A stretch of 64,000 bases of DNA from a bacterium (GTDB lineage Bacteria; Bacillota; Bacilli; Lactobacillales; Streptococcaceae): positions 100,609 to 164,608 of the forward strand of contig CAJNDO010000005.1 of assembly GCA_905221545.1 (NCBI GenBank). Direction: 5' to 3'. The translations under genes were made by a program, and so were the position numbers. Of the stretch, positions 53,835-63,676 are shown in pieces; the first letter of the stretch is position 1, and each line of letters starts with the position of its first letter. The notes beneath the pieces were generated by a model. That model was given only the letters and a program-made list of their open reading frames with translations, did no database searches and was not told the DNA's origin.

Positions 53835-55448
53835 ATGCAAGAAAAATGGTGGCATAATGCCGTAGTCTATCAAGTCTATCCCAAGAGTTTTATGGATAGC
53901 AACGGAGATGGAATTGGTGATTTGCCAGGTATTACCAGTAAGTTGGACTATCTAGCTAAGTTAGGGATTACAGCGATTTGGCTTTCTCCTGTTTATGACA
54001 GCCCTATGGACGATAATGGCTACGATATTGCTGACTATCAAGCGATTGCAGCTATTTTCGGAACTATGGAGGACATGGACCAACTGATTGCGGAAGCCAA
54101 GAAGCGTGATATTCGCATCATCATGGACTTGGTGGTCAATCATACTTCGGATGAACATGCTTGGTTTGTCGAGGCATGTGAAAATCCTGACAGCCCAGAG
54201 CGCGACTACTATATCTGGCGGAATGAACCGAACGACCTAGATTCTATCTTTAGCGGATCTGCCTGGGAATACGATGAAAAGTCAGGTCAATACTATCTCC
54301 ACTTTTTCAGTAAGAAACAGCCTGATCTCAACTGGGAGAACGAAAAGCTTCGTCAGAAAATTTATGAGATGATGAACTTCTGGATTGATAAAGGCATTGG
54401 TGGTTTCCGCATGGATGTTATTGACATGATTGGGAAAATTCCTGATGAGAAAGTAGTCAATAATGGTTCTATGCTCCACCCTTATCTCAAGGAAATGAAT
54501 CAGGCGACTTTTGGAGATAAGAATCTCTTGACAGTAGGGGAAACATGGGGAGCAACGCCAGAAATAGCTAAACTTTACTCTGATCCAAAGGGACAAGAAT
54601 TGTCTATGGTCTTCCAGTTTGAACATATTTGTCTTCAGTATCAGGAAGGTCAACCTAAATGGCACTATCAAAAAGAGCTAAACATCGCTAAGTTAAAAGA
54701 GATTTTCAACAAATGGCAGACAGAATTAGGAGTTGAGGATGGTTGGAATTCCCTCTTCTGGAACAATCATGACCTTCCTCGTATTGTCTCAATCTGGGGA
54801 AATGACCAAGAATACCGTGAAAAATCTGCCAAAGCCTTTGCAATTTTGCTTCATTTGATGAGAGGAACACCTTATATCTACCAAGGTGAGGAGATTGGTA
54901 TGACCAATTATCCGTTTGAGACACTGGAGCAAGTAGAAGATATTGAATCTCTCAACTATGCGCGTGAAGCTCTTGAAAAAGGCGTTCCGATGGAAGAAAT
55001 CATGGATAGTATCCGTGTCATTGGACGTGACAATGCCCGTACTCCAATGCAATGGGATGAGAGCCAAAATGCTGGTTTCTCAACAGGTCAACCGTGGTTA
55101 GCAGTCAATCCAAACTATCAAGCCATCAACGTTCAAGAAGCGCTGGCAAATCCAGATTCTATTTTCTATACCTATCAGAAACTGGTTCAAATCCGTAAGG
55201 AGAACAGCTGGCTGATTCGAGCTGACTTTGAATTACTTGATACGGCGGCTGATAAGGTCTTTGCTTATATCCGTAAAGATGGCGACCGTCGTTTCCTAGT
55301 TGTGGCTAACTTATCCAATGAAGACCAAGACTTAACAGTAGAAGGAAAAGTTAAATCAGTCTTGATTGAAAACACTGTGGCGCAAGAAGCAGTTGAGAAA
55401 CAAATCTTGGCTCCATGGGATGCTTTCTGTGTGGAAATGACTAACTAA
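53835..55448 (+). CDS. dexB: Glucan 1,6-alpha-glucosidase
   Basis: 537 residues, GH13 enzyme that cuts alpha-1,6 glucose ends from isomaltose-type sugars in the cytoplasm. Catalytic residues: nucleophile Asp194 in GGFRMDVID, acid Glu236 in TVGETWG, and Asp313 in [21 protein letters not shown] is the first conserved region. It is the fixed left flank of the capsule locus in pneumococci. Here it is followed at once by a terminator and then the aliC-like gene. The cre-like site shows probable CcpA control. Confidence 0.96.
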
Positions 55449-55456
55449 AAAGTGAG

Positions 55457-55486
55457 AACCTTGAGCCTTAGAGCTTGAGGTTTTTT
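55457..55486 (+). terminator. dexB terminator
   Basis: AACCTTGAGC and GCTTGAGGTT pair (two G-T) around CTTAGA and run into six T. Confidence 0.9.
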
Positions 55487-55528
55487 GCTAAAAGTTGTGT
55501 AAAAATCTCTTTTAAAAACATTTGTTAG

Positions 55529-55543
55529 AATTTTCTAAAAAAT
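55529..55543 (+). promoter_or_regulatory. CodY-like box before aliC
   Basis: AATTTTCTAAAAAAT matches 13 of 15 positions of the CodY consensus and ends 13 bases before the -35. Confidence 0.6.
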
Positions 55544-55556
55544 CTGTCAAAAGCTC

Positions 55557-55584
55557 TTGCATTTGTAAAAAAATAGGGTATAAT
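55557..55584 (+). promoter_or_regulatory. aliC promoter
   Basis: TTGCAT (55557-55562) and TATAAT (55579-55584), 16 bases apart, 31 bases before the start. Confidence 0.75.
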
Positions 55585-61180: not shown

Positions 61181-61624
61181 CGCAAGGATTCTGTCATTTT
61201 AGAATTTTTGCTATTTAAGATTTTTAGAAGTAAAGCGAACAAGATTGTTTTCTGTCGGTCAGAAGAGAATCGATGTTGGCTTTTTGTTTTGTGCAGATGG
61301 GTAATTTATACTTATGTAGAATCAAAGAGCATCTTTTTCTTGGTAGTTTGCTCAAGAAATATCATAACCCAAGTATGTACTTTGAAATTCAACAGTTTTT
61401 ATAAGTATTTCTGTATTCTAGGGAATCAATGTTAGAGTTTTTGGTAAAAACTATATTCTCAAAAAAGGAAAATTTATACTCTTTTGATTTTAAATAAGTA
61501 TAAAACAGGCTACTACTTGATATTTAGAGATATCGTCAACAAGCCCTTTGTTATGTGAATTAGTTAAGAAATAGTTAATATTATTCATATTTTTACAACC
61601 TTATTGTTTAAAAAATAATTTTCA
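61181..61624. other. Intergenic stretch, no gene recognised
   Basis: AT-rich, about 440 bases. A 75-residue frame at 61208-61435 has no ribosome site and Cys/Phe-rich composition like random AT-rich sequence. It may be decayed capsule or transposase sequence, but nothing can be named. Confidence 0.5.
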
Positions 61625-61639
61625 AAAATTCTGAAAATT
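61617..61639 (+). promoter_or_regulatory. Overlapping CodY-like boxes before aliA
   Basis: AAAATTCTGAAAATT (61625-61639) matches 13 of 15 consensus positions. A second, 12-of-15 match begins at 61617 and overlaps it, the tandem spacing seen at other CodY targets. The box ends three bases before the -35. Confidence 0.7.
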
Positions 61640-61642
61640 GTA

Positions 61643-61671
61643 TTGACAGGACTTGAAAAAGAGTCTATAAT
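61643..61671 (+). promoter_or_regulatory. aliA promoter (full consensus)
   Basis: TTGACA and TATAAT exactly 17 bases apart, a rare perfect match. Confidence 0.9.
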
Positions 61672-61696
61672 GAATAAAAAAACGAAGGAGAAGACT

Positions 61697-63676
61697 ATGA
61701 AAACAAGAAAAGTATTGGCTCTTGCGGGAGTGACTTTATTAGCAGCGGGTGTTTTAGCTGCTTGTTCTGGGGGCTCAGGTGCTAAAGGTGAGCAGACCTT
61801 TGCCTTTACCTATGAGACCCACCCAGATAATCTCAACTACTTAACAACTGGTAAGGCAGCAACTGCTGACATTACTAGTAATGTGATTGATGGATTGCTT
61901 GAAAATGATAAATATGGGAACCTTATTCCCTCAATGGCAGAGGACTGGTCAGTTTCTAAGGATGGCTTGACCTACACTTATAAGATTCGTCAGGATGCCA
62001 AGTGGTATACATCTGAGGGAGAAGAGTATGCTCCTGTTAAGGCTCAGGACTTTGTGACAGGTCTTAAATATGCAACAGATAAGAAATCAGAAGCCCTTTA
62101 CTTGGTACAAGATTCAATTAAAGGTTTGGACGCATATGCTAAAGGGGAAAATAAAGATTTCTCTCAAGTCGGGATTAAAGCGCTTGACGATCAAACAGTC
62201 CAATACACTTTGAACAAACCTGAAAGTTTTTGGAATTCTAAAACAACTATGGGTGTACTTGCGCCAGTCAATGAAGAGTTTTTGAATTCAAAAGGGGATG
62301 ATTTTGCCAAAGCTACGGATCCAAGTAGTATCTTGTACAATGGTCCTTATTTGTTGAAATCTATTGTAACCAAATCTGCTGTTGAATTTGCTAAAAATCC
62401 GAACTACTGGGATAAGGACAATGTCCATATTGACAAAGTTAAATTGTCATTCTGGGATGGTCAAGATACTAGTAAACCTGCAGAAAACTTTAAAGACGGT
62501 AGCCTTTCAGCAGCTCGTCTCTATCCAACAAGTGCAAGTTTCGCAGAGCTTGAGAAAGAGATGAAGGACAATATTGTCTATACGCAACAAGACTCTACAA
62601 CTTATGTAGTGGGGACAAACATCGACCGTCAGTCCTATAAATATACTTCTAAGACTAGTGAAGAACAAAAGACATCTACTAAAAAGGCTCTCTTAAACAA
62701 GGATTTCCGTCAGGCTATTGCCTTTGGATTTGACCGTACAGCCTATGCCTCTCAGTTGAATGGACAAACTGGAGCAAGCAAAATCTTACGTAATATCTTT
62801 GTTCCACCAACATTTGTTCAAGCAGATGGTAAAAACTTTGGCGACATGGTCAAAGAAAAATTGGTGACTTACGGGGATGAATGGAAGGATGTCAATCTTG
62901 CTGATGCACAAGATGGTCTTTACAATCCAGAGAAAGCCAAGGCCGAATTTGCTAAAGCCAAATCAGCTCTACAAGCTGAGGGAGTACAATTCCCAATTCA
63001 CTTAGATATGCCTGTTGACCAAACAGCAACTACAAAAGTTCAGCGTGTCCAATCTATGAAACAATCCTTGGAAGCAACTTTAGGAACTGATAATGTCATT
63101 ATTGATATCCAACAATTGCAAAAAGATGAAGTGCTTAATGTAACTTTATTTGCAGAAACAGCTGCTGGCGAAGATTGGGATATCTCAGATAACGTTGGTT
63201 GGTCTCCAGACTTCTCAGATCCATCAACTTATCTTGATATCATTAAGCCTTCAGTAGGGGAAAATACGAGAACTTACCTAGGATTTGATTCAGGAAAAGA
63301 CAATGAAGCGGCTAAGAAAGTTGGTCTCAATGATTATGATAAAATGGTCAATGAAGCAGGGGAAGAAACTACAGATGTTACAAAACGTTATAACAAGTAT
63401 GCCGAAGCTCAAGCATGGTTGACAGATAGTGCCCTAGTCATTCCAACGACATCTCGTACAGGGCGTCCAATCTTGTCTAAGATGGTACCATTTACGATAC
63501 CGTTTGCACTAGCAGGAAACAAGGGGACAAGCGAACCGCTCCGATACAAATACTTGGAACTTCAAGACAAGGCAGTTACTGTGGATGAATACCAAAAAGC
63601 TCAAGATAAATGGATGAAAGAAAAAGAAGAATCCAATAAAAAAGCGCAAGAAGACCTTGCAAAACATGTCAAATAA
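61697..63676 (+). CDS. aliA: Oligopeptide-binding lipoprotein AliA
   Basis: 659 residues. I chose ATG 61697 (MKTRKVLALAGVTLLAAG) because GAAGGAG lies just before it and the lipobox LLAAGVLAACSGG then sits at the normal distance; a longer in-frame start would lie within the -35 region. GLLENDKYGNLIPS, AEDWSVSKDGLTYTYKIR, LLNKDFRQAIAFGFDRTAY and the end QEDLAKHVK match pneumococcal AliA as remembered almost throughout. It is the fixed right flank of the capsule locus in pneumococci. Feeds peptides to the Ami transporter. CodY-like boxes precede a consensus promoter. Confidence 0.95.
   Translation: MKTRKVLALAGVTLLAAGVLAACSGGSGAKGEQTFAFTYETHPDNLNYLTTGKAATADITSNVIDGLLENDKYGNLIPSMAEDWSVSKDGLTYTYKIRQDAKWYTSEGEEYAPVKAQDFVTGLKYATDKKSEALYLVQDSIKGLDAYAKGENKDFSQVGIKALDDQTVQYTLNKPESFWNSKTTMGVLAPVNEEFLNSKGDDFAKATDPSSILYNGPYLLKSIVTKSAVEFAKNPNYWDKDNVHIDKVKLSFWDGQDTSKPAENFKDGSLSAARLYPTSASFAELEKEMKDNIVYTQQDSTTYVVGTNIDRQSYKYTSKTSEEQKTSTKKALLNKDFRQAIAFGFDRTAYASQLNGQTGASKILRNIFVPPTFVQADGKNFGDMVKEKLVTYGDEWKDVNLADAQDGLYNPEKAKAEFAKAKSALQAEGVQFPIHLDMPVDQTATTKVQRVQSMKQSLEATLGTDNVIIDIQQLQKDEVLNVTLFAETAAGEDWDISDNVGWSPDFSDPSTYLDIIKPSVGENTRTYLGFDSGKDNEAAKKVGLNDYDKMVNEAGEETTDVTKRYNKYAEAQAWLTDSALVIPTTSRTGRPILSKMVPFTIPFALAGNKGTSEPLRYKYLELQDKAVTVDEYQKAQDKWMKEKEESNKKAQEDLAKHVK

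Follow-up and report, generated by a model that had tools for sequence, protein, structure and literature searches.

A shared capsule-null dexB-aliA allele of Streptococcus mitis-like streptococci with an intact glf gene that may be kept for use outside the lost capsule

Capsule (cps) loci reduced to a few genes between dexB and aliA have been described several times in streptococci (the published accounts are cited here from their available portions). The locus analyzed here, a dexB-aliA site carrying two ali lipoprotein genes and glf, the gene for UDP-galactopyranose mutase, in a 64,000-nt stretch of DNA from a mouth streptococcus (the window, meaning that whole stretch), is a further instance of this already known layout. 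In the 2010 description of S. mitis B6 the interval from dexB to aliA holds nothing but glf and an aliB-like gene that is non-functional (PMC2828477), and truncated loci of S. mitis NCTC 10712, SK321, SK642, SK1080 and B6, all with Glf except that of SK642, were read as degraded cps loci (PMC5111408). The truncated loci resemble the window in having dexB, aliC and/or aliD, glf and aliA and no complete capsule set; two of them also have wzg, and the ali gene of B6 is non-functional, whereas in the window both ali genes are intact and there is no wzg. Incomplete S. mitis loci that include D22 likewise hold AliC and/or AliD and Glf between dexB and aliA, but D22 differs from the window in being rearranged and in having a second CPS/RPS-like locus (PMC12211801). 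The NCC3-type locus of S. pseudopneumoniae, present in 43 genomes, shares dexB, aliD and glf with the window (PMC6593409) but has one ali gene and, by the account in PMC5111408, no aliA downstream. Null capsule clade 2 pneumococci resemble the window in that aliC and aliD stand where capsule genes would be, but these strains may carry ntaAB, and their glf is reported as a pseudogene or as undetected (PMC4928513, PMC3541774).

A second polysaccharide locus, cps2, lies between addA and rnhB in SK321 and SK137, and the wzg left at the truncated site of SK321 has been suggested to serve it (PMC5111408). Complementation by wzg is also raised in PMC12211801, where the single passage on glf in the available text offers no counterpart for that gene. 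No proposal that a truncated-site glf supplies another locus was found in the literature covered (partial texts, titles and the starts of abstracts), nor was a report of galactofuranose in capsule-null S. mitis among the titles and abstract starts on galactofuranose glycolipids, transferases and S. mitis polysaccharide. What goes beyond the literature covered is the shared aliD-glf junction, the constraint on glf, and the splitting of wzg and glf from cps2 in two relatives (G201 and G153; genomes and loci are given as G and L numbers).

In the window the order dexB-aliC-aliD-glf-aliA runs on the + strand throughout, and every frame is open according to the open reading frame (ORF) listing. The left cps flank is dexB (53835..55448, + strand, a 537-aa ORF with 92-98% identity to relatives' loci where covered), and the right flank is aliA (61697..63676, + strand, 659 aa from its ATG, 90-98% identity in other type A null loci, as defined below). 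Between them lie aliC (55616..57583, + strand, 655 aa) and aliD (57786..59744, + strand, 652 aa), both encoding oligopeptide-binding lipoproteins, for which the best solved structures are AliC 8qlh (1375 bits) and AliD 8qlc (1358 bits), respectively; this agrees with their naming in the preliminary description and argues against unrelated peptide-binding proteins. They are followed by glf (60080..61180, + strand), which is intact, scores 444.9 bits against TIGR00031 (curated cut-off 303.75) and encodes a protein whose alignment to the solved UDP-galactopyranose mutase 1i8t spans residues 1-361; a score above the cut-off together with a near full-length match to a solved enzyme identifies the predicted product as Glf. 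No ORF for wzg, wzh, a glycosyltransferase, wzx or wzy was found between dexB and aliA in the ORF listing of the window, where the remaining ORFs of at least 80 aa all overlap named genes, and the ntaAB toxin-antitoxin pair, a trait of null capsule clade 2a, is likewise not seen among ORFs of that length at the locus beyond frames overlapping named genes. With its dexB and aliA flanks, its ali genes, no wzx, wzy or glycosyltransferase genes between them, and glf present, the window thus has the characters of the truncated S. mitis loci (PMC5111408).

The claims of the preliminary description that this site holds aliC-aliD-glf in place of capsule genes and that some S. mitis have the same layout were therefore sound, the former from open frames and family and structure matches, the latter from the truncated loci in the available text of PMC5111408, PMC2828477 and PMC12211801. 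The parallel that it drew with null capsule clade 2 is a loose one: the replacement of capsule genes by aliC and aliD is common to both, but the pneumococcal glf is described as a pseudogene (PMC3541774) or went undetected (PMC4200197). Because the identical gene order recurs in other genomes at about 90-99% protein identity, chance is excluded as the source of the layout; an assembly artefact was rejected because many genomes carry the same order.

In a survey of Streptococcus genomes (about one per species cluster, so that frequencies are across clusters and not within any species) 30 of 247 genomes gave an AliD match that was full-length and at least 94% identical, and all 30 could be classed from loci or coordinates. 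Thirteen are type A, in which glf comes straight after aliD, as it does in the window; two are type B, with aliD-wzg-glf and a second glf type that is 65% identical; 14 carry capsule genes; and the remaining one, G132, has only a fragment of glf. G271 and G303 are probably one genome, that of L007, and G119 is taken by us to be S. mitis B6, in part from the published B6 layout. The type B nulls, G153 (L113) and G201 (L099), read aliC-aliD-wzg-glf (65% type)-aliA. In L099 the start of wzh remains between wzg and glf. G132 has a null locus, neither a Wze match nor a match to the galactofuranosyltransferase (GalfT) query described below, and glf as a fragment only; the only trace of the gene between aliD and aliA of its locus, L096, is a piece of the second glf type covering residues 117-154 at 89%.

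The type A loci have their aliD-glf junction in common. A 186-nt junction sequence is present in 15 of 284 Streptococcus genomes (G303, G109, G296, G246, G255, G236, G169, G188, G113, G090, G267, G249, G001, G030 and G119), each time at aliD-glf, and 31 further genomes match it only in short stretches of at most 65 nt, mostly on a hairpin. In the encapsulated loci compared, the region is matched only by copies of a mobile insertion, and the core junction is without a match in the flanks of encapsulated loci that were tested. The parts of this leader emerge from an alignment of 15 null loci (the window, 13 relatives' loci and B6). A terminator-like hairpin with a U run lies 3' of aliD (59774..59808, + strand), with RNA fold z of -2.5 in the window, -2.8 in L007 and -1.9 in L049 (the three tested) and a diversity of 0.0115 over the 15 loci; a terminator scan limited to loops of at most 8 detected none here. 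It is followed by a candidate glf promoter (59829..59857, + strand; CTGAGA, 17 nt, TAAAAT, TG ahead of the -10; 9/12 consensus match), of which the -10-like TGTGCTAAAAT is identical in 15/15 loci while the -35 hexamer varies in four (L003, L005, L006 and L009). A consensus promoter scan gave 8 promoter-like sites where 7.8 are expected from shuffles; the candidate promoter therefore rests on its conservation. Next comes a mobile insertion in the glf leader (59868..60019, + strand), presumably RUP-like, which is full in 10/15 loci, part-deleted in L004 and missing from L003, L007, L009 and L014. The window carries the features that define the shared type A null allele, namely the aliD-glf junction with TGTGCTAAAAT and the terminator-like hairpin. 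A common junction with near-invariant hairpin and -10 points, at the level of sequence, to a single deletion event and a stand-alone glf.

The preliminary description had singled out the intact glf as the unusual feature of the locus, but glf is intact in every one of the 16 type A loci where the gene is readable throughout (15 and G296). The 17th, G169, was rejected as a case of broken glf, as its gap is assembly N over part of the gene. In a full-gene tree 12 null glf form one clade with support 99, and within this clade 170.5 synonymous and 53.5 non-synonymous changes are counted over 221 and 877 sites (ratio 0.079), with a median pairwise ratio of non-synonymous to synonymous rates (dN/dS) of 0.058. 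No stops are seen in null glf, against a neutral expectation of ~11 when calibrated on the insertion (10 loci) or ~24 when calibrated on other intergenic DNA (15 loci), both rough figures that take junction DNA as a neutral clock and ignore recombination. By contrast, B6 aliD has two in-frame stops, although B6 glf is intact. In L097 (G030), from 5484 onwards, a GalfT-like gene that adjoins an intact glf is broken. Taken together, glf in type A nulls looks constrained.

These results are probably best explained, although our confidence in the explanation as a whole is modest, by a capsule-null cps allele shared among S. mitis-like streptococci in which glf has been kept and is used; the sugar gene may, in other words, be kept for use outside the lost capsule. 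Loss of the capsule genes by deletion would have left glf with a transcript of its own, Glf would make UDP-galactofuranose, and a glycosyltransferase encoded elsewhere would put galactofuranose into a surface glycan, while AliC and AliD would bind peptides for the oligopeptide permease and have no part in glycan synthesis. With its shared junction, conserved leader and constrained protein, the lone sugar gene at the empty capsule site of these S. mitis relatives does not resemble debris. Should glf be in use, so-called non-encapsulated commensals may nevertheless expose galactofuranose, which is not known from human cells; such display, if true, would bear on the description and detection of capsule-null streptococci. 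The preliminary description had offered two options, a user of the sugar elsewhere or the mark of a former capsule cluster, and there is something for each: the site looks deletion-derived, and three relatives (G201, G153 and G001) have a GalfT-like gene, a candidate transferase, outside the null site.

The GalfT query was L102:13833-14873, which stands at the place of SK137_0353 (PMC5111408) in a locus resembling the SK608 record L001, and we infer its specificity from this locus position. One such genome is G201, where a cps2 occupies the addA-rnhB site. Its open genes include those for wzh, an initial transferase, a wzd-like protein, wze, an EpsG-type polymerase, a flippase-like protein, CDP-glycerol enzymes and an enzyme related to the SK137 galactofuranosyltransferase; wzg and glf are missing from it. 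The dexB-aliA site of the same genome retains wzg and glf, and this is its single glf match. G153 has the same layout, again with one glf match; in both genomes the null site retains wzg and glf, the two genes lacking from cps2. G153, G201 and G243 each have a second locus with the neighbors and build of the published cps2 of SK321 and SK137 (PMC5111408, available text). In L127, the cps2 of G201, genes for a cytidylyltransferase-like protein and a CDP-glycerol glycerophosphotransferase lie at 14840-15238 and 16316-17425, which suggests a glycerol-phosphate-containing polymer. In G001, a type A genome, the only glf match is at the null site, and an 82% GalfT relative is found on a short contig. 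Of 247 genomes, 81 match GalfT at E 1e-40 or better, and glf is present in every one of them (lists compared by eye); this co-occurrence is largely expected, because by coordinates the two genes are often neighbors.

Several observations weigh against a glf in use. The GalfT query has no match in 10 of the 15 junction genomes (G109, G255, G267, G090, G113, G236, G246, G188, G296 and G303), and among the others G119, G249 and G169 have only relatives of 27-37% and G030 only a broken copy. Wze is above cut-off in none of 14 of the 15 junction genomes (G001 being the one with a match) versus 6/6 encapsulated controls. At 7631-9021 of L128 (G153) the cps2 initial transferase gene is divided over separate frames, and an in-frame stop falls within wzd, whereas the G201 copies are open; this cps2 may therefore not work, or the assembly may err. 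In G001 the cps2-like locus has its own wzg and lies on another contig than the GalfT relative, the link between the two being presumed. The constraint itself is strong but looks weaker than in encapsulated strains, as dN/dS is 0.022 among 11 capsule-locus glf of related strains compared with 0.058 in nulls. The insertion has diverged by 0.041 versus 0.22 at glf fourfold sites, and much of the glf divergence may thus predate the junction or stem from recombination. Without columns 781-990 of the glf alignment the null group, now including the window, has a support of only 46. Finally, 14 pneumococcal samples with aliB clusters carry a glf pseudogene, while 11 non-pneumococcal isolates have glf together with aliB genes (PMC3541774, available text), and in pneumococcal aliB-cluster loci glf went undetected by array (PMC4200197, available text).

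The strongest rival is gene flow from encapsulated donors, under which glf would be a leftover, intact only through exchange of the site by competent streptococci with encapsulated donors that need the gene. Much of what has just been listed comports with it, namely the want of a GalfT match in most junction genomes, the pneumococcal pseudogenes, a junction less diverged than the adjoining genes and the low support for the null group. It also draws on the window itself, as the glf of the window, B6 and L049 fall among capsule-locus glf in the full-gene tree, and the window gene contains a capsule-locus-like block of ~120 nt (60920..61039 on the + strand, approximate limits from alignment block 841-960), whose identity is 82% with the closest glf of the null clade but 97-98% with the capsule-locus glf L107 and L022. 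Once this odd stretch is excluded the window gene joins the null glf, though support is mixed, and the simplest reading is that it is a null allele carrying a recombined patch. However, a glf refreshed from donors accords poorly with the separate clade of 12 null glf in the full-gene tree, with the nearly invariant hairpin and -10, and with the record of decay, where none of 16 readable type A loci has a broken glf whereas aliD has decayed in B6 and the GalfT-like gene is broken in G030. On balance the leftover account is a serious possibility that nevertheless falls short of being probable.

We propose tentatively, and regard as somewhat unlikely in this specific form, that capsule-less S. 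mitis-like streptococci keep a separately transcribed glf for an undescribed galactofuranose-containing surface glycan or glycolipid, made with a GalfT outside the families searched. WciB (DUF4422, PF14393) has no match in any of 17 null genomes (G296 lying outside this set) and is found in 2/6 encapsulated ones, while GT2/GT4 matches are present in five type A genomes. Several candidates were tried and rejected. The GalfT homologue of B6 has Gtf3 glucosyltransferases as its best solved structures, and the homologues of G249 and G169 lie in apparent serine-rich-adhesin clusters like that of B6 (neighborhoods judged by eye). A 338-aa GT2 beside trk-like and LPXTG-like genes has its frame cut short in G090, where glf is intact. 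A 276-aa GT2 of L085 is taken by us to be the probable counterpart of spr0091. On that footing it was rejected as a glf user, since for the spr0091 enzyme, as for the one that replaces it in S. oralis, the sugar reportedly added is Glcp or Galp (PMC4649388, available text).

The window strain could instead have a split set of the kind proposed for G201, G153 and G001, the null site supplying UDP-galactofuranose to a cps2 in another part of the genome; the data for this strain are the 64-kb window, and the case must be argued from relatives. Those three genomes do combine a null-site glf with a GalfT homologue elsewhere, and G001 is the nearest available genome to the window. Yet G001 has just 32% of sampled words in common with the window and is the only one of the 15 junction genomes to show the arrangement, and the cps2 of G153 is interrupted in two genes; by these comparisons the split arrangement is not a general rule among type A genomes, and we consider it unlikely for the window strain. 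In L093 (G001, contig C116; 2125-6571 and from 10893 onwards) the cps2-like locus stands near relaxase-like and recombinase-like ORFs (by eye), and it may adjoin a mobile element.

A recent and independent loss of the capsule in the window strain alone would account for the grouping of its glf with capsule-locus glf in the full tree. However, nine other null loci share its junction, insertion included, at 93-96% identity across 333-335 nt, and once the odd stretch is removed its glf falls, with mixed support, among null glf; the shared junction already makes such a loss very improbable. Equally remote is the idea that Glf serves another reaction or sugar and makes no galactofuranose, as most type A genomes lack a WciB- or WefE/WcrH-type match but the protein is a near full-length match to solved UDP-galactopyranose mutases and capsule loci carry the same gene, in several cases along with a GalfT homologue.

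Two minor observations concern the surroundings of glf. A plasmid connection was rejected: the matches, two Lactococcus records, cover glf alone. Downstream, an aliA promoter (TTGACA-17-TATAAT, 61643..61671, + strand) matches the consensus at 12/12 positions, and since the TTG start given in the ORF listing at 61643 is the -35 hexamer of this promoter, the ATG at 61697 is likely the start of aliA.

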